The notes under the pieces: model-generated
Databases searched by the model: none
Seen by the model: only the letters and a program-made list of their open reading frames with translations
What the model was told of the DNA's origin: nothing
From: a virus
Strand: one strand, 5' to 3'
Virus record (IMG/VR): IMGVR_UViG_3300027773_000184
Location: 1 to 41,260 of that record
Length of the DNA stretch: 41,260 nt
In this document: one piece after another, positions 1,122 through 17,867 of the stretch
How the letters are laid out: every line of letters begins with the position of its first letter
Numbering within the stretch: the stretch's first letter is position 1
Made by a program: the position numbers and the translations under genes

Positions 1122-2326
1122 CCGCGCGCGATCCCGCCTTTGAAGTCTGGATCGAGGAGGCGCGGCGGGTCACCGTGCAGCAAGAGATCATGCGGCGTGG
1201 GCTTTGGTCGCGGCTGATGCTCGGCGACAACGGCGTGCCCTGCCCCGGCTGCGGCGGGCGGGACCGCTTCGCGGTCAATCTGCGCAAAAATGTCTGGAAT
1301 TGCCGCGCCTCTGGCGTTGGCGGCGATGCGATCGCCCTTGCGCAGCATATCGATGGCACGGATTTTTTGCGCGCCGTCGAGACGGTGACGGGGAGGCCGC
1401 CGCCGAAGGCGCAAGCGATGAGCGCCGAAGAGCGGCGGGCGATCGAAGCGAGGGCCGAGGCGCGGCATCTTGCGGATTTGCGCAAAAGTGCAAACGACGA
1501 AAAAAAGGCCGCGCAGTTTCGCGAGAAAGAGCGGCTGAGGGCTTACGAGATTTGGCGCTCCTGCGAGCCCATCAAAGGCACGCTCGCCGAAGATTATCTC
1601 GCGCAGCGCGGCCTCATCGCGCAGCGCGAAGCAAGGCTGAGATTTCACCCCGGCGCCGCCTATTGGGATAGGCCTAAGGATCAGGGCGGCCGGATCCTGC
1701 ATCACGGTCCCGTGCTCGCGGCGGCGATCGAAGGGCCGGACGGGCGCTTTGCCGGCGTGCACCGCACCTGGATCGATCTGGCGCAACCGAATGGCAAGGC
1801 ACACATTATCGACTTAACGTCAGGCGATAAGTTGCCCGCCAAAAAGGTGCGCGGCTCGGTCAAGGGCGGCAGCATTTTGCTCGCCCGCCCTGGCGCGCCC
1901 AGGACGCTTTATCTCGGCGAGGGCATCGAGACGGTGCTCTCTGTTTTCTGCGCACTGAGGCGCAATAACCCGGCGGCCGACGCCGAATTCCGTGCCGCCG
2001 TGAGCCTCGGCAATATGGCGGGGCGCGCAGCCTATCGCGTGCGCCATCCCACAGCGACGCGCGCCGATTCCAAGGGCCGTATGCACCCCCTCTTTGTGCC
2101 GGGGCGCGAGCCGCTCGACGATCCGGACTGGCCTATTATTCCCGTGCCGGAGAGCGTCACCGAGCTCGTGCTCTTGGGCGACGGCGATAGCGAGCCCTTC
2201 TTTACCCGCATGGCCTTGCAGCGCGCGGTGCGGCGGTTCGCGAAGGCCTATCCGCATTTATCAATCTCGATTGTGCTCGCCGCGCCAGGCTCGGATTTCA
2301 ACGATATGCATGGAGAGGCCGCATGA
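1118..2326 (+). CDS. Phage DNA primase (zinc finger plus Toprim-like domain)
   Basis: This 402-residue protein would make RNA primers for phage DNA replication. The N-terminus has a zinc-finger-like segment: C42-P-G-C45, then GGRDRFAVN, then W-N-C62-R-A-S65 followed by GVGGDAI, the layout of CHC2-type primase zinc fingers. The fourth metal ligand expected at residue 65 is serine, not cysteine. The C-terminal half carries LYLGEGIETVLSV (about residues 264-276), which supplies the Toprim glutamate, and VLLGDGDSEPF (about 350-360), which supplies the acidic pair. A lysine/arginine-rich linker lies between. It overlaps the upstream gene by four bases and the helicase gene by four bases, so the three are a coupled operon. 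The call is secure at family level; activity with the altered finger is uncertain. Confidence 0.9.
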   Translation: MTARDPAFEVWIEEARRVTVQQEIMRRGLWSRLMLGDNGVPCPGCGGRDRFAVNLRKNVWNCRASGVGGDAIALAQHIDGTDFLRAVETVTGRPPPKAQAMSAEERRAIEARAEARHLADLRKSANDEKKAAQFREKERLRAYEIWRSCEPIKGTLAEDYLAQRGLIAQREARLRFHPGAAYWDRPKDQGGRILHHGPVLAAAIEGPDGRFAGVHRTWIDLAQPNGKAHIIDLTSGDKLPAKKVRGSVKGGSILLARPGAPRTLYLGEGIETVLSVFCALRRNNPAADAEFRAAVSLGNMAGRAAYRVRHPTATRADSKGRMHPLFVPGREPLDDPDWPIIPVPESVTELVLLGDGDSEPFFTRMALQRAVRRFAKAYPHLSISIVLAAPGSDFNDMHGEAA

Positions 2327-3978
2327 GCGGCGCCGATGACGTCTCCAGTGCCTTCCCTGGCGCAGAAATTCTCTCATTCCCGCGCGCCGCTTCGCCTGAG
2401 GCCGCCCGTCCGCCGCGCCGCGGTGGCTCGGCTTCATCCCGGCCGGGAGGATCGCGCGAAGCTTCTTCCTCCGGCGGCAAGGGGGAGGCCCCGGATGGCG
2501 GCGATCCTTTGGATTTTGAGTGCGCACGCCTGCCCTTGACCGACCTCGGCAATGCCGAGCGCTTCTCGAAGCGCTTCAAGGACCGCTTCCGCTTTTGCGA
2601 GTCGCTTGGCTGGCTCTATTGGGACGGCAAGCGCTGGGCGAAGGCGGGCGCGACCGAAAAGGTCAAAGAGGCCGAGCATGAGACCGTGCGCGCGATCCAG
2701 CGCGAGGCCGCTGCGATGCGCGGCGCGCCGGATGATGTGCTTGTCTCAAGCACGCGCGGCAAGGAGGTCTGGCTCTCGGATAAGATTGCCGCCTGGGGCC
2801 TCGCCTCCCAAGCGGCGGCGCGGATGGCGGCGATCTCGAACAGAGCTAGCGCGATGCTGACCGTCGCCGTCGAGGCGCTCGACGCCGATCCGATGAAGTT
2901 TTGCGTCGCCAACGGCACGCTTCATATCGCCAAGCGCGCGGACGGCCCTTATGTCACGCTGCACCCGCACGATCCGAACGACTTCATCACAAAGATTTCG
3001 CCCGTCGCTTTTGATCCGAAGGCCACATGCCCGCGCTTTGACCGCTTCATGGACGAGGTGCAGCCGCCCGATGACGGGCGCGCCGTGCAGCGTTTTCTCG
3101 ATCAATGGGCGGGGCTGTCGCTCACCGGCGATATTTCTGAGCAAAAGCTCACCTTCCATTATGGCAAGGGGCGGAACGGCAAATCGGTCTGGGTCAATAC
3201 GATTTCTTTCGTTGCGGGCGATTACGCCGATTCGATCCCCGTCGAGAGTTTCATGGATTCGGGGCGTGCGCGGGCCGGCGGACAGGCGACGCCCGATATC
3301 GCGGGCCTGCCTGGCGTGCGGATGCTCACGACGAGCGAGCCGAAGAAGGGCTCGGCCTTCGACGAGGGCCTGATCAAGCTCTGCACCGGCGGCGATAAGA
3401 TCAAGGCGAGGCATCTAAACCGGGATTTCTTCGGCTTCGTGCCGCAGGCCAAGCTCACCATGATCGGCAACTACCGGCCGAAGGTCTCGGGGACCGATGA
3501 GGGGATTTGGAACCGGCTCGTGCTCGTGCCCTGGCCGGTCTTCATCCCGCCGGAAAGGCGCGACCCGACACTTTTCGAGACGCTCAAAGGCGAGGCGGCG
3601 GGGATTTTAAACCGCCTCCTCGACGGGCTATGCACCTGGCTCGATGGCGGCCTTTCGATCCCGGGAGCGGTGGCGGCGGCGACGGCCGATTACCGCTCGG
3701 ATAGCGACCCTCTGGGGCGGTTTCTGGAGGCGTGCACGCGGCCGACGATCGGCAAGAAGGTGCAGGCCTCCGACATGCACGCCGTCTTCTCCGCCTGGGC
3801 GAAGGCCAATGGCGAGACGGTGTGGTCTGCCAAGGGCCTTTCGGCGGCGCTCAAAGAGCGCGGCATCGCGGCCAAGAAGTCGGTCAATGTCTATTGGCTC
3901 GACATCGAGCTCACCAAGGGCGTCTCGGACTTTTTGGACGTCAACGGCAATCCCGTGCGCCGGAGCGATGATGGATAA
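2323..3978 (+). CDS. SF3 replicative helicase (P4/D5 primase C-terminal family)
   Basis: A 551-residue protein of the phage/plasmid P4-type primase-helicase family. The first 60 residues are low-complexity and proline/serine-rich. A D5-N-like region follows (from about residue 80), then the ATPase core with Walker A GKGRNGKS at residues 281-288, a Walker B-like segment around LPGVRMLTTSEPKKG, and the sensor-like KLTMIGNYRPKV and NRLVLVPWPV that are typical of the family. The C-terminal 80 residues form a winged-helix-like domain (DPLGRFLEACTRP onward). It would unwind DNA at the phage origin, together with the primase encoded just upstream (four-base overlap). A short gene repeating its last domain starts before its stop codon, and a dense iteron cluster follows. 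Confidence 0.93.
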   Translation: MSGADDVSSAFPGAEILSFPRAASPEAARPPRRGGSASSRPGGSREASSSGGKGEAPDGGDPLDFECARLPLTDLGNAERFSKRFKDRFRFCESLGWLYWDGKRWAKAGATEKVKEAEHETVRAIQREAAAMRGAPDDVLVSSTRGKEVWLSDKIAAWGLASQAAARMAAISNRASAMLTVAVEALDADPMKFCVANGTLHIAKRADGPYVTLHPHDPNDFITKISPVAFDPKATCPRFDRFMDEVQPPDDGRAVQRFLDQWAGLSLTGDISEQKLTFHYGKGRNGKSVWVNTISFVAGDYADSIPVESFMDSGRARAGGQATPDIAGLPGVRMLTTSEPKKGSAFDEGLIKLCTGGDKIKARHLNRDFFGFVPQAKLTMIGNYRPKVSGTDEGIWNRLVLVPWPVFIPPERRDPTLFETLKGEAAGILNRLLDGLCTWLDGGLSIPGAVAAATADYRSDSDPLGRFLEACTRPTIGKKVQASDMHAVFSAWAKANGETVWSAKGLSAALKERGIAAKKSVNVYWLDIELTKGVSDFLDVNGNPVRRSDDG

Positions 3979-4207
3979 GATGCGCGACCCGCTGGGCGAG
4001 TTTTTGGCGGCGTGCACGCGGCGCTGCTTGGGAAATGATGTTCAAGCGTCTGTGCTCTACGCCCGATTTTGCGAATGGGCGGCGGCGAACGGCGAGCAAG
4101 TCTGGCCTATCAAGAAGTTCGCGCGGCTGATGAAAGCGCGCGGGATGCAGGCGAAGAAGAGCAACTTCATCCTTTGGGTCGATCTTGAGCTCAAACGCAG
4201 TTCTTGA
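3968..4207 (+). CDS. Small protein paralogous to the helicase C-terminal domain
   Basis: The 79-residue product reads DPLGEFLAACTRRCLGNDV, then VLYARFCEWAAANGEQVWPI, and ends ARLMKARGMQAKKSN-FILWVDLEL. The last 80 residues of the helicase encoded immediately upstream read DPLGRFLEACTRPTIGKKV, VFSAWAKANGETVWSA, LKERGIAAKKS and WLDIEL in the same order, so this gene is a duplication of that domain as a free-standing protein. Two adjacent ATGs at 3968 and 3971 both lie inside the end of the helicase gene, giving an 11-base overlap and translational coupling. A role as DNA-binding partner or modulator of the helicase is inference. Confidence 0.75.
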   Translation: MMDKMRDPLGEFLAACTRRCLGNDVQASVLYARFCEWAAANGEQVWPIKKFARLMKARGMQAKKSNFILWVDLELKRSS

Positions 4208-4518
4208 AGTGTTCTTTGTTACGTTTCGTGATCCTCCCGTCCCTCCCGGAAACGGGAGGATGGTCAGTTGGAATTCTGAAATGAAATCAACGGGCGCGGG
4301 AGGATAAGAGGTTCGGGAGCTTTTTGCAGACCTTCCGCATATGCGCGTGCGCGCGCGCACACACATTATGCGTAATGTGAAAAATCCTCCCGTTCTTCTT
4401 ATCCTCCCGTGGCCTTTGTAAAATAAGGAGAATTTCACTTGTAATCCTCCCGTATATCCTCCCGTGAATTTTATCATCCTCCCGTTCTTAACGAAAACAA
4501 AGGCTTAGGTGGCATCCC
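4208..4518 (+). other. Iteron cluster, candidate phage replication origin or operator region
   Basis: This gene-free stretch contains the 10-mer ATCCTCCCGT seven times without mismatch: plus strand at 4231, 4384, 4401, 4444, 4456 and 4476, minus strand at 4252-4261. A ninth-of-ten match lies at 4297-4305 on the minus strand. At 4242-4259 the copies build a perfect 7-bp stem with a GAAA loop (CCTCCCG-GAAA-CGGGAGG). A 31-nt alternating pyrimidine-purine tract lies at 4336-4366. The stretch is richer in A/T than its surroundings between 4370 and 4505. Position directly after primase and helicase genes fits an iteron-type origin; an operator array controlling the next gene is the alternative. Confidence 0.65.
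4336..4366. other. 31-nt alternating pyrimidine-purine tract (Z-DNA-capable)
   Basis: From C4336 to T4366 every step alternates pyrimidine and purine, running through CGCATATGCGCGTGCGCGCG and then a CA run. Such sequences can adopt left-handed DNA under negative supercoiling. It lies in the middle of the iteron cluster, next to a small CATTA/TAATG inverted repeat at 4364-4377. A strand-opening or supercoil-absorbing role is inference. Confidence 0.6.
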
Positions 4519-5433
4519 ATGTTTGAGCGGCGGCAACAGGTGATTGGTCTGGCAAAAGCGCATGGCGCGCCGCATCGCGTGGCGATGCCAAGGCCAAAGC
4601 GGCTGATTGGGATCGAGGCGCTGCTGCGCTGGGCCTATTCCGAGGAGCTACCGAAGGTGAGCGCCGGCGGCGCACTGTCGTTTTTGCCTGCGGGTTTTGT
4701 CACGGCCTCTTTTGCGGCAGAGGCCGGCGAAAACGTGCGCGTCAACCGCTTTGGCGTCGTGCCGGATTTCTCGGCGCCATGCGGGCCGCATGCCGATGCG
4801 CTAGCGATTGCCGGGGTGGTCAAGTCTCTCGATGAGTTCGAGCTTGCCATCCCGGACGGATGGGATCCGTTTGCCGATTTGGGCGAGATGGGCGGCCATC
4901 GAGCGGCGGCGATTGCTGATGTTTTGGCGCGCTTGACTGTGATTGGTCTTGACGGCAGGCGGCGGCTTAAGACAAAGCCATCGCGGCTGATTATGCGCCA
5001 TGCGATCCTGGGCGGCTGCCCGGACTGGCGCGCGGAAAAGCCGGAGGTGAAGTTCGTCTGCGCCGCGAACGGGAAACCGAGATGGTACGTTCGGCAGACC
5101 GTGCTCGACGTGAGCGGCATTCCGTTTGAGGTTGAGGCGGATGGTTATTCGAAGAGTGCCAAGCGGCCGGTCGCTGGCGCCTATCGCAAGACCTACCTTG
5201 ATCCCGATCCGGTCGAGGCCGGGGTCAAGCGCGGCGAATATGAGATTTGGCGCGCGGCGCTTGATCTGCTTGTCGGTGTGCTCGACGGCCAGCTTGAAGC
5301 GAATCAGGCGTTGCCGTGCGCCAGGCCGCAAAGGCCATGGGAAGGAAGTTATTCACCGCCGCGCGTGCTTCCGGTAGTGCCGGTCTATAGAGGGGAAACG
5401 GCGCTTTTGGCCTGTGTGGTCGAGACGGCCTGA
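4519..5433 (+). CDS. Unrecognised phage protein next to the iteron cluster
   Basis: A 304-residue protein that I cannot assign to a named family. The start at 4519 follows AGGTGG with about seven bases of spacing. Visible segments include IGIEALLRWAYSEELPK near the N-terminus, IPDGWDPFADLGEMG in the middle, and LILKHAILGG-like LIMRHAILGGCPDWRAE, followed by GKPRWYVRQ and KRPVAGAYRKTYLDPDP, a pattern I associate with alphaproteobacterial prophage hypotheticals. No transmembrane segment, no signal peptide and no clear HTH are visible. It is a single gene between the iterons and the packaging block, so it is a candidate for the iteron-binding initiator or a regulator of late transcription. Both ideas rest on position alone. 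Confidence 0.7.
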   Translation: MFERRQQVIGLAKAHGAPHRVAMPRPKRLIGIEALLRWAYSEELPKVSAGGALSFLPAGFVTASFAAEAGENVRVNRFGVVPDFSAPCGPHADALAIAGVVKSLDEFELAIPDGWDPFADLGEMGGHRAAAIADVLARLTVIGLDGRRRLKTKPSRLIMRHAILGGCPDWRAEKPEVKFVCAANGKPRWYVRQTVLDVSGIPFEVEADGYSKSAKRPVAGAYRKTYLDPDPVEAGVKRGEYEIWRAALDLLVGVLDGQLEANQALPCARPQRPWEGSYSPPRVLPVVPVYRGETALLACVVETA

Positions 5434-14845: not shown

Positions 14846-15079
14846 ATGCAAAAACTCTTTTTAAAGCCCGCCGTGCCGGGCGCGATCGTGCGCCAGCCAG
14901 ACCGCGACATGCGCCCGCTCGCGCAAGATGGAGAATGGGTGCAGGCCTCGACGTTCTGGCATCTGCGGCTTCTCAACGGCGACGTGATCGAGGCCGATCC
15001 GCCTAAGGAGTCTGCGGCTTCCGTTTCGTCCCCCGGTCTTTCCGTTGGGCCGTCGGAGGCAAAAGCCCCTGCCGCCTGA
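14846..15079 (+). CDS. DUF2635 family protein
   Basis: This 77-residue protein reads MQKLFLKPAVPGAIVRQPDR, then LAQDGEWVQASTFWHLRLLN and GDVIEADPP. The KPA-G--VR-P---R-L---G--V----FW-RRL-DGDV pattern is that of DUF2635, a small Mu-type tail protein gene nearly always found just before the sheath gene. The last 25 residues (Ser/Ala/Pro-rich) are unlike the family and are encoded by DNA that overlaps the 3' end of the antisense GIY-YIG gene by 77 bases. The C-terminus may therefore have been changed when that gene arrived. Confidence 0.8.
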   Translation: MQKLFLKPAVPGAIVRQPDRDMRPLAQDGEWVQASTFWHLRLLNGDVIEADPPKESAASVSSPGLSVGPSEAKAPAA

Positions 15080-15716
15080 GTTCGGCATTGCGTTTGCGCG
15101 CGGCGATAGCGGCCGCCGAGATGCGTTTGGTGAGTTCTGGCGAACGAGAGGCTTGGGCTTTCATGGCGCGCGCCGCGCGTTCTTCGGGAGACATCGCCTC
15201 ATATTCGGCCTTCATGCGGGCTGAGCGGAAGGCGGCCAATTGAGCTTTCGTTTCTTCGCTCATGTTTGCGGCGCGTGCTTTGGCGATCTCCGATTTTTGA
15301 TCTATAGACAAGCCAGATTGGCGCTGCTTAGCGATAGCTTCCCGCTCTTCTGGAGTGCGCGAGGCGTTCATAGCTTTCATCGCCTCACGTAATGAGGAAA
15401 TGCGCTGGACGCTTGGCGTATAATCTGAGTCTGTGTGGCCGCGAACAATCTGATTGTAAGCCTCTGCGCGGCGTTGCTCGATTAAAGCGACCTCCATCTG
15501 GCTTGCTGTGGCCCTGGAATCGAAAGTGCCTCTGATTTCGAAACGGAAGCAGTCCTCGCCGTATCTGCGAATTGCAGCGTAGAGCGGCAAGTCCTCTCCG
15601 TTGCGCGCTCGCCGCAAATGATCGCGCCAATGCCGCCAAGGCTTGATGGATTGACCAATGTAAACCGAACCATCGGCTGAATTGGTGATCTCATAAACAC
15701 TGAACGTATGCTTCAT
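15003..15716 (-). CDS. GIY-YIG endonuclease (free-standing homing-type)
   Basis: A 237-residue protein on the opposite strand to all neighbouring tail genes. The N-terminal GIY-YIG domain is visible: VYEITN at 7-12, VYIGQS at 18-23, HWRDHL around 29-34, LYAAIRRYGEDCFRFE at 45-60 and the catalytic glutamate E75 in SQMEVALIEQ. The C-terminal two thirds hold short basic helical repeats (TPEEREAIAKQRQS, SEETKAQLAAFRSARM, SPEERAARAMKAQ, SPELTKRISAAAIAARKRN) like nuclease-associated DNA-binding modules. It lies between DUF2635 and the sheath gene, a typical site for a homing endonuclease in a conserved late region. The start lacks a strong ribosome-binding site. It could spread itself or exclude related phages. 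Confidence 0.88.
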   Translation of the reverse strand: MKHTFSVYEITNSADGSVYIGQSIKPWRHWRDHLRRARNGEDLPLYAAIRRYGEDCFRFEIRGTFDSRATASQMEVALIEQRRAEAYNQIVRGHTDSDYTPSVQRISSLREAMKAMNASRTPEEREAIAKQRQSGLSIDQKSEIAKARAANMSEETKAQLAAFRSARMKAEYEAMSPEERAARAMKAQASRSPELTKRISAAAIAARKRNAELRRQGLLPPTAQRKDRGTKRKPQTP

Positions 15717-15748
15717 TTGTATCTTGCTCGTGAAAAAGGAGCTGAGCT

Positions 15749-17275
15749 GTGACTGTCTCGTTTAATAGAATGCCTACACAAACACGTGTACCATTCTTTT
15801 ATGCGGAAGTAAACGCCGGCCTCTCCTATTTTGCCGGTAATTCGAAGCACCTTATCATCGGCCAAAAGCTTTCCGCGGGCAGCGCGGCGGCGAATGTGCC
15901 GGTCATCGTGCAGACGAGCAATATCGAGGCGCTCTTCGGCGTGGGCTCGATGCTCGTCGATCAAATTTATACCGCGAAGGTCAACAATCCGGTTGGCGAG
16001 ATATGGGCTCTCCCCTTGGCCGATCCGGCGGGCGCCAGCGCCACGGGGCAAATCGCGCTCTCCGGCACGCCAACGCCCGGCACGCTTGTCGTTTACATCG
16101 CGGGCCAGAAGATCGCGATTGCCGTCACCGCCGCCGATACGCCAACGACGCTCGCCGCGGCGATGGCCGCGGCGATCAACGCGGGCTATGTCGATTTGAA
16201 TGGCAGGAGCCGCCTCTTCCCGGTCACCGCCGCCGTTGGCACCGGCACGCCGCCCGCAACGACCGTCGTGGTCACCGCCCGCCATGCGGGCTTGCAGCAC
16301 AATCTTGTCGCGATCGACAAGGATCTCGTGGGCGACGAAGGCCCGAACGCGGCGCTCATCGCCATCACCGGGATGGCGGGGGGCACCGGAACGCCAAGTC
16401 TGACCGCTGGCCTTGCCGCCTGCGGCTCGACCGAATTCGACATGATCTCTCTCCCCTATGCGGACACGACATCGCTCAATTCGCTGCGCGATTTCTTGGC
16501 CGATACGGGCGGGCGCTGGGATCCGACGGTTGATCTTTACGGCGGCGCTTTTACGGTCAATTTCGGCAATCTCTCGGCCCAATCGACCCTGGGCGCCGGG
16601 CGCAACGATCCGCATATGTCGATCATGGGCGTACAGTCCTCGCCGACCCCGCCCTGGGTATGGGCGGCGGCGATCGGCGCGCAGGTCCAGCTGCATAAAA
16701 ACCTTGGCGCCGATCTAGCGCAAGCTGGCGAAATCTCGCGCCCGATGCAGACGCTCATCTTGCTCGGCGTCAAGCCGCCGAAGCTTGTGTCGCAATATTG
16801 GGCGCAGTCCGACCGCAACACGCTCTATTACGACGGCATCTCGGCTTTTTATGTCACGCGCGACGGCCAGGTGGCGATTGACCGGCTCATCACAACCTAC
16901 CAGACGAATGCCTGGGGCGTCATCGATTCCACGTGGCTCGACATCGAGACGCTCTATCAGACTGCCTATGCGCTGCGCTATTTCAAGCTGATCATCACGC
17001 AATCTTATCCGCGCAGCGCCTTGGTGCCGGATAATCCCGGCGCGCTGCAGGGTTTTGTCACGCCCTCGGACATCAAGGCGACCCTGGCGCATGCTTATAG
17101 CGCGCTTGTCAAGGCGGGCGTGATGAAAAACGCGCAGCTCTTCGCCGACAGTCTTGTCGTCGAGCAGGCGGCCGATCCGAACCGCGTCAACGCCTATCTG
17201 CCGCTCGATGTCGTCAATCAGCTGCGCATCTTCGCCGCCAACGCCACGACCTTCCTTAACGCCGCCGCCAACTAA
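15749..17275 (+). CDS. Contractile tail sheath protein, Mu gpL family
   Basis: The 508-residue sheath subunit starts at GTG 15749, seven bases after AAGGAG. Family landmarks: the opening MPTQTRVPFFYAEVNAGLSY, IIGQKLSAGSAAANVPVIV, FGVGSMLVDQIYTAKVNNPV, FDMISLPYADTTSLNSLRDF, WVWAAAIGAQVQLHKNLGAD, LLGVKPPKLVSQYW and the C-terminal LPLDVVNQLRIFAANATTFL. This makes the phage a myovirus. A Mu-type gene order continues downstream (tube, chaperone, tape measure), with gcrA and a toxin-antitoxin module inserted before the tube. Confidence 0.95.
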   Translation: MTVSFNRMPTQTRVPFFYAEVNAGLSYFAGNSKHLIIGQKLSAGSAAANVPVIVQTSNIEALFGVGSMLVDQIYTAKVNNPVGEIWALPLADPAGASATGQIALSGTPTPGTLVVYIAGQKIAIAVTAADTPTTLAAAMAAAINAGYVDLNGRSRLFPVTAAVGTGTPPATTVVVTARHAGLQHNLVAIDKDLVGDEGPNAALIAITGMAGGTGTPSLTAGLAACGSTEFDMISLPYADTTSLNSLRDFLADTGGRWDPTVDLYGGAFTVNFGNLSAQSTLGAGRNDPHMSIMGVQSSPTPPWVWAAAIGAQVQLHKNLGADLAQAGEISRPMQTLILLGVKPPKLVSQYWAQSDRNTLYYDGISAFYVTRDGQVAIDRLITTYQTNAWGVIDSTWLDIETLYQTAYALRYFKLIITQSYPRSALVPDNPGALQGFVTPSDIKATLAHAYSALVKAGVMKNAQLFADSLVVEQAADPNRVNAYLPLDVVNQLRIFAANATTFLNAAAN

Positions 17276-17277
17276 AA

Positions 17278-17316
17278 TCCTTCTCCCCTCGCGGGAGAAT
17301 GGCAGGGATGAGGGGG
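17278..17316 (+). repeat. Hairpin/RBS repeat, short copy at 17.3 kb
   Basis: TCCTTCTCCCCTCGCGGGAG keeps the first stem, but the second stem is reduced to GGCAGG before GATGAGGGGG. The GAGGGGG lies six bases upstream of the gcrA ATG, so the repeat end is again the ribosome-binding site. Confidence 0.8.
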
Positions 17317-17321
17317 TGCTT

Positions 17322-17867
17322 ATGAAAGGCTGGACCGAGGAGCGCATCGCGCTCGCCGTCAAGCTCTGGGCCGAAGGCAAGACGGCAGCGGCCATCGCAG
17401 AGGCGATCGGCTGGGGCATGACCCGCAACGCCGTCATCGGCATGCTCAACCGCCGCAAGCTCAAGATCAATGGCAAGAAGGCCGGACCTGGGCGGGTGAG
17501 CAAGCTGGTTCTTGGAGCGCGCGCCCCAAAGCCGCATGCCCCTGCTAAGCGCCAGCTGCCAGCCATTCGCCCGGCAAGGGAAGAAACGATCTTCATCCCC
17601 CGCTGTGTGGTCCCGGCGCGGCCTTCGAGGCCTGCTTCGCAGTGTGCCATCTCGAAGAATGAGGCATCACCGGAAGCCGCAGAGCGCGTCCTTGCTCTGA
17701 AGCCAGGCCAGTGCCGCTATCCATTGGGGGATCCTTTAGACCCCGCGTTCCGCTTCTGCGCGGCGCCCATCAAGGCCGAAGGCAAGCCCTATTGCGCGGC
17801 GCACCACCGGCTTTGCCATCGCCCTTCTCCCTTCGCGGGAGAAGGTGGACGCGAAGCGGCCGGATGA
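17322..17867 (+). CDS. gcrA: GcrA-like cell-cycle regulator
   Basis: The 181-residue protein opens with WTEERIALAVKLWAEGKTAA, then TRNAVIGMLNRRKL, the DNA-binding domain of GcrA, the alphaproteobacterial regulator that binds RNA polymerase with sigma-70 and acts at promoters bearing CcrM-methylated GANTC. The C-terminal domain is also present: CRYPLGDPLDPAFRFCAAPI, then GKPYCAAHHRLC, with the four-cysteine/His pattern of the family. The linker (about 95-125) is encoded by DNA resembling a Rhizobiales palindrome. The last 15 residues come entirely from the hairpin repeat at 17822, whose TGA ends the gene. Start at 17322 uses the RBS of the preceding repeat. Phage copies of gcrA are known; this one could steer host or late phage transcription. 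Confidence 0.9.
   Translation: MKGWTEERIALAVKLWAEGKTAAAIAEAIGWGMTRNAVIGMLNRRKLKINGKKAGPGRVSKLVLGARAPKPHAPAKRQLPAIRPAREETIFIPRCVVPARPSRPASQCAISKNEASPEAAERVLALKPGQCRYPLGDPLDPAFRFCAAPIKAEGKPYCAAHHRLCHRPSPFAGEGGREAAG

Follow-up and report, generated by a model that had tools for sequence, protein, structure and literature searches.

The helicases encoded by SaPI and SCCmec elements read iterons located 3' of their own genes through the C-terminal domain (PMC7581432), and in PICI origins two sets of iterons flank a core (PMC6092414; also PMC7581432). The pRN1 Orf904 origin and the predicted origin of Bordetella phage BIP-1 also lie immediately 3' of an SF3 helicase gene (PMC4234260). Phage P4 unites a Toprim primase, an SF3 helicase and a winged-helix origin-binding domain (structure 1ka8) in a single protein, alpha. 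The type I iteron of P4 is GGTGAACAG, and its replication system includes a second winged-helix protein, Cnr.

The DNA analyzed here, a 41,260-bp IMG/VR virus record (hereafter, the window), appears to carry a SaPI/PICI/P4-like scheme on a complete phage, a combination that may have been noticed earlier in the subscription literature. The record encodes terminase, portal, major head, tape measure, baseplate and tail proteins and therefore represents a tailed phage with a full set of structural genes, in contrast to SaPI/PICI and related elements, being neither a satellite nor a cassette. Within its otherwise plus-strand structural module, a minus-strand block of three genes (positions 15003 to 17650) encodes a GIY-YIG homing-type endonuclease (15003 to 15716) and two ORFs (327 and 311 aa), for which no family match was found; the block has the appearance of a mobile or cargo insertion.

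The candidate origin follows a set of plus-strand replication genes. A 402-aa Toprim-type primase (1118 to 2326; Pfam DUF7146 and Toprim_3, CHC2-like zinc finger; PHROG 510, DNA primase) precedes a 551-aa D5-type SF3 helicase (2323 to 3978; Pfam D5_N, E value of 2e-28, with Pox_D5 at the C terminus; PHROG 1156), which is the proposed initiator. An SF3/D5-type helicase with an adjacent or fused primase is likewise typical of SaPI/PICI, and SaPI5 Rep and Cch2 are D5_N-type helicases as well. However, the window has a separate Toprim primase, whereas SaPI/PICI employ an AEP and pRN1 and BIP-1 also encode archaeo-eukaryotic-type primases. With P4 alpha it shares the set of Toprim primase, SF3 helicase and winged-helix origin-binding domain but differs in encoding the primase and the helicase as separate ORFs. 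The helicase ends in a putative origin-binding winged helix (3703 to 3975, plus strand), assigned from its co-variation with the iterons and its homology to the 78-aa protein encoded next (3971 to 4207, plus strand). The latter, 52% identical to the Pox_D5-like C-terminal domain of the helicase itself, is an extra, stand-alone copy of the domain, which distinguishes the window from SaPI/PICI, while a second winged-helix protein is a feature shared with P4. A winged helix at the end of the helicase, with the origin 3' of its gene, is also the arrangement in pRN1 and BIP-1 (PMC4234260). The start of the 78-aa ORF overlaps the helicase stop, and the first repeat comes 24 bp past this ORF. The earlier note on this DNA was thus right to place the repeats downstream of an SF3 helicase, but not directly so. 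Beyond the array, a 304-aa protein of unknown function (PHROG 9306) is encoded at 4519-5433; it has no Pfam match, and a scan of viral contigs returned no relatives of it. None of the four proteins neighboring the iterons showed a Rep-type Pfam match of the kind expected for a classical iteron plasmid initiator.

The array itself consists of a 10-mer, ATCCTCCCGT, with seven exact copies, all within 4231-4485; no further exact copy was found anywhere in the record. Base composition predicts about 0.0006 exact copies per 255 bp. The CCTCCC/GGGAGG core of the 10-mer makes nine boxes in 4233-4483, compared with 13 scattered over the remaining 41 kb. The left arm comprises an exact iteron at 4231 to 4240 (plus strand), a degenerate box at 4240 to 4249 (plus strand, with the CCTCCC core at 4242), a second exact copy at 4252 to 4261 (minus strand), and a copy with one mismatch, ATCCTCCCGC, at 4296 to 4305 (minus strand). 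The right arm contains five exact copies, all on the plus strand (4384 to 4393, 4401 to 4410, 4444 to 4453, 4456 to 4465, and 4476 to 4485), whereas the two left-arm boxes closest to the core are on the minus strand. The outermost boxes of the left arm build a 7-bp hairpin with a GAAA loop (CCTCCCG-GAAA-CGGGAGG, 4242 to 4259), in which the degenerate box supplies the left side; an alternative, longer stem pairs 4231-4240 with 4252-4261. Folding of 4225-4270 was better than that of all 200 of 200 shuffled sequences (z = -3.0). On all these points the earlier note, made from the sequence alone, was accurate: it had listed seven exact 10-mers in about 255 bp in both orientations, the hairpin, a Z-DNA-capable tract, and a clustering far beyond chance, and the spacings that it gave for the clustered part (12, 17, and 20 nt) are correct, with one additional 43-nt gap from 4401 to 4444. 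Its remark that the 10-mer resembles no familiar iteron family can be amended: the repeats are of a recognizable kind, the lineage-specific helicase iterons seen in SaPI/PICI and P4. The type I iteron of P4, GGTGAACAG, has no copy in the window, and the layout of the P4 origin is a different one. The two iteron sets around a central region are as in SaPI/PICI; pRN1 and BIP-1 instead have a long stem-loop without iterons, in contrast to the iterons and short, box-made hairpin of the window.

The two arms enclose a core of some 80 bp, which contains a 31-bp alternating purine/pyrimidine tract, CGCATATGCGCGTGCGCGCGCGCACACACAT (4336 to 4366), the Z-DNA-capable element mentioned above. It is the longest alternating run in the window, the next one being 16 bp. 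The SaPI/PICI core has been described as AT-rich. In the window, the GC content of the core is 50-53%, against 62% for the genome, but that of the alternating tract itself is 68%. The tract is GC-rich and offers no obvious melting site. The region from 4200 to 4500 as a whole has 48% GC versus 62%, which amounts to only a moderate AT enrichment; a stretch with 33% GC inside the right arm (4411 to 4443) is a possible melting site on the basis of its composition. A search of the open literature returned nothing direct on Z-DNA in phage origins. Beside the iterons, the DnaA box TTATNCACA is absent. A relaxed DnaA-box-like word of the form TTWTNCACA, TTTTTCACA, is located inside the candidate origin region at 4376-4384 on the minus strand; it may be there by chance, because the 41-kb window has one other. 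Cumulative GC skew along the window has a turning point near 6 kb, which is not interpretable as evidence for an origin, and skew was rejected as uninformative.

The earlier note had proposed looking for conserved iteron clusters in related phages, and these were indeed found. Relatives of the helicase were drawn from viral contigs, genome contigs and phage records, giving 126 non-redundant loci (<85% identity); in each, the 480 bp after the helicase stop were inspected for a repeated 7-mer and an alternating tract, both judged against dinucleotide shuffles. An array of short repeats is present directly 3' of the helicase in 97 of the 126 loci, or about three quarters of them, whereas 29 have no array within the 480 bp. 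An alternating tract is found in 71 loci, 68 of which also have an array, and in 67 of these 68 the tract lies between the repeats; its start is, by the median, 115 bp past the helicase stop codon. The arms show a net inverted arrangement in 60 of 64 loci and the opposite sense in 4. These features are specific to the location: at least five repeat copies are found in 74% of the helicase-3' regions, compared with 3.5% of 346 other intergenic regions from the same loci, and for alternating runs of 14 or more the figures are 49% and 2%, respectively. The repeat words are lineage specific and include CCTCCC, CCTTCC, CCTTGC, TGCTCC, CTCTCC, CGTCCC and GCCTCCC, along with TCCTTCC in locus L074 and others. 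Short, lineage-specific iterons 3' of the gene for the initiator helicase are also what is found in SaPI/PICI and at the putative origin of SCCmec Cch2, where the C-terminal domain is the reader, a role predicted for that domain here. Inspection by eye revealed opposed sets of repeats in the same place in phages of Mycobacterium, Staphylococcus, Lactobacillus, Acidithiobacillus and cyanobacteria, whereas for phiC31, Arthrobacter phage DrSierra and Vibrio phage 1.196.O it showed no such array immediately after the helicase gene. Fionnbharth and phiSP15-1 carry equivalent arrays 3' of the helicase.

The closest helicase relatives come from Methylocapsa aurea (73% identity) and Methylocella silvestris (74%), and the host is likely in or near this group. 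The M. aurea locus (L090) has the same repeat word and the same layout as the window, directly after the helicase and without the 78-aa ORF; in the M. silvestris locus, the same word appears just past the helicase stop, where the contig ends. A candidate origin immediately 3' of the helicase, the position of the origin in SaPI/PICI, is found in L090 and most other relatives. The genes that follow the array vary and include those for a NusG-like antiterminator, PHROG 9306, DUF6362, the terminase small subunit, and DNA polymerase, but the array stays behind the helicase. The gene for the 304-aa protein follows the array also in several relatives (RR1-A, AmM-1, L029, L035 and L137). A NusG-like transcription antiterminator is encoded directly after the array in L001 (1961-2578), L011 (7071-7601), and L019 (6835-7578). 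L001 additionally has four copies of another short repeat, CGGTTGACG, which bears no relation to the boxes of the candidate origin; they are clustered within about 90 bp around the point where a downstream gene begins (2746-2843).

The repeats co-vary with the C-terminal domain of the helicase. In Mantel tests, whose values are inflated by shared ancestry, iteron distance correlated with winged-helix distance once the helicase body had been corrected for (partial r of 0.35 in 96 loci and 0.34 in 130 loci; P = 0.001), whereas the rest of the helicase added little (0.07, P = 0.13, and 0.10, P = 0.03, respectively). Among 50-column segments slid along the helicase, the top scores (0.27-0.38) fell inside the winged helix, and those wholly outside it reached at most 0.16. 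The winged helix is the coding segment nearest to the repeats, and therefore linkage could contribute to this signal. One position in the wing is nearly diagnostic of the repeat word in the loci compared: all 44 loci with CCTTCC boxes have a glycine there, as against none of the 32 with CCTCCC, every one of which has another residue. On the tree of helicase bodies, the wing residue and the repeat word each change five times, always together; three of these concordant changes fall on branches with strong support, and neither these three nor all five are enough for a sign test, which would need at least six independent switches to reach significance. The clearest case is provided by loci L040 and L189, sisters at 98% SH-aLRT with helicase bodies that are 71% identical and origins that can be aligned. 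All seven clearly aligned boxes differ between them by a C-to-T change at the same position, one box having a second change, and the wing reads S-D-V in L040 and S-N-G in L189. Such a concerted change across separate boxes is what would be expected if a single protein reads all of them.

The AlphaFold2 model of the 78-aa protein is a winged helix (pLDDT of 92). In a fold search it came closest to RFX DNA-binding domains, the ASFV primase-helicase tail, and the origin-binding domain of P4, 1ka8 (Z score of 9.0, rmsd of 2.0 Å over 73 residues, 20% identity). RFX domains score as well as 1ka8, and therefore the fold alone is not specific; searching the PDB by sequence, with a profile of the winged helix, gave nothing above chance. 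RFX1 reads DNA through its wing, reportedly a new mode of DNA binding, and this fits the wing position identified by co-variation in the helicase. Of 170 loci, just two carry the domain outside the helicase: the window and Rhizobium phage RR1-A. In the latter, RHXG_00065 (L006, 5842-6570), annotated as an antirepressor, has a C-terminal part that corresponds to the winged-helix domain of D5 helicase tails, fused, in our reading of the sequence, to a BRO-type N-terminal part; its gene stands directly before a CTGTCC/GGACAG cluster (read by eye), and this cluster is separated from the helicase by a distance of two genes. The P4 regulator Cnr, also a winged-helix protein, is thought to pair with the origin-binding domain, and a 2002 study by Yeo et al. 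is said to deal with these two partners. By analogy, we infer that the 78-aa protein acts as a competitor or a partner of the helicase domain.

Three things are established at the level of sequence, namely the anatomy of the array, its recurrence behind helicases of this family, and the co-variation between repeats and helicase domain, and they support the earlier note's proposal of a candidate phage origin beside primase and helicase genes. In our assessment, the region is very probably the replication origin of the phage, with the D5-type helicase encoded just upstream as the initiator. The likely binder of the iterons is the helicase itself and possibly also the 78-aa protein, a copy of its putative origin-binding domain. 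Binding by the 304-aa protein is unlikely, given that other relatives keep the repeats with unrelated genes in its place. Run-off replication in Bartonella was considered as experimental support and discarded, as the helicase involved has been described as Twinkle-like and belongs to another family.

Several other explanations need to be weighed against a replication origin. The repeats could be operators through which the 78-aa protein, the 304-aa protein or the helicase regulates transcription over the 4.2- to 4.5-kb gap, with replication starting elsewhere. The array does lie upstream of a gene and adjoins that for a small protein with a DNA-binding domain, and in RR1-A a BRO-type protein with the same domain directly precedes a repeat cluster. 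Yet the downstream gene differs among relatives while the array stays behind the helicase, opposed arms around a conserved core together with the helicase-domain co-variation fit an initiator better, and a scan of 3900-4700 for sigma-70-like promoters, a weak test, found none. We regard a purely regulatory function as improbable, although the repeats may have an additional regulatory role besides that of an origin. It is appreciably harder still to see the region as a cos/pac packaging or end site read by the terminase, whose small and large subunit genes begin about 1.2 and 1.8 kb downstream: the array of RcapNL is indeed close to its annotated cohesive end, but those of Fionnbharth and phiSP15-1 have annotated neighbors other than terminase, and it is the helicase domain that the repeat sequence follows.

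A role in RNA, with the box hairpins terminating an early transcript or giving rise to structured RNA, would draw on the stable hairpin formed by the outermost boxes. This is the only such hairpin, however, and no T run comes after it; the plus-strand scan found no terminator-like site there, most boxes of the right arm share one orientation, which keeps them from pairing among themselves, and the co-variation partner is a DNA-binding domain. This, too, seems very unlikely. Finally, slippage can spread short repeats, but functionless amplification or chance would have to account for a word expected about 0.0006 times per 255 bp, for irregular spacing and both orientations, for the same location in about three quarters of the relatives, and for the box-by-box concerted change between L189 and L040; its probability appears negligible.

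If the region is an origin with the helicase as its initiator, replication could proceed as follows. The C-terminal winged helix of the helicase would read the 10-bp repeats, largely via its wing, and the opposed repeats on either side of the ~80-bp core would assemble two helicase rings. The rings might melt the core or the neighboring AT-rich stretch and then, once loaded on the strands, unwind bidirectionally, and the separate Toprim primase would supply the primers. The stand-alone 78-aa copy may tune initiation by competing for the repeats or by pairing, Cnr-like, with the helicase domain. A still broader proposal, which we offer tentatively and rate below an even chance, is that the window exemplifies a widespread class of phage origins whose organization has so far been described as peculiar to PICIs. 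According to this proposal, a wing code fixes the iteron (glycine reading CCTTCC, valine-like residues reading CCTCCC, and further residues reading other words), an alternating core, maybe via Z-DNA, takes over the unwinding function of an AT-rich element, and regulation of the origin is the dedicated task of detached copies of the domain.

Most origins of tailed phages remain unmapped. If the above is true, origins could be read from the sequence 3' of the D5 helicase gene across a large group of alphaproteobacterial phages and prophages and, apparently, in some phages of Firmicutes, mycobacteria, Acidithiobacillus and cyanobacteria. A conserved alternating core, where an AT-rich melting site would be expected, turns the mechanism of unwinding into a question that can be tested. 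The pairing of helicase and iterons would explain replicon specificity among related phages and yields concrete single-residue predictions, and P4, SaPI/PICI, SCCmec and ordinary phages would be joined under one scheme of initiation.
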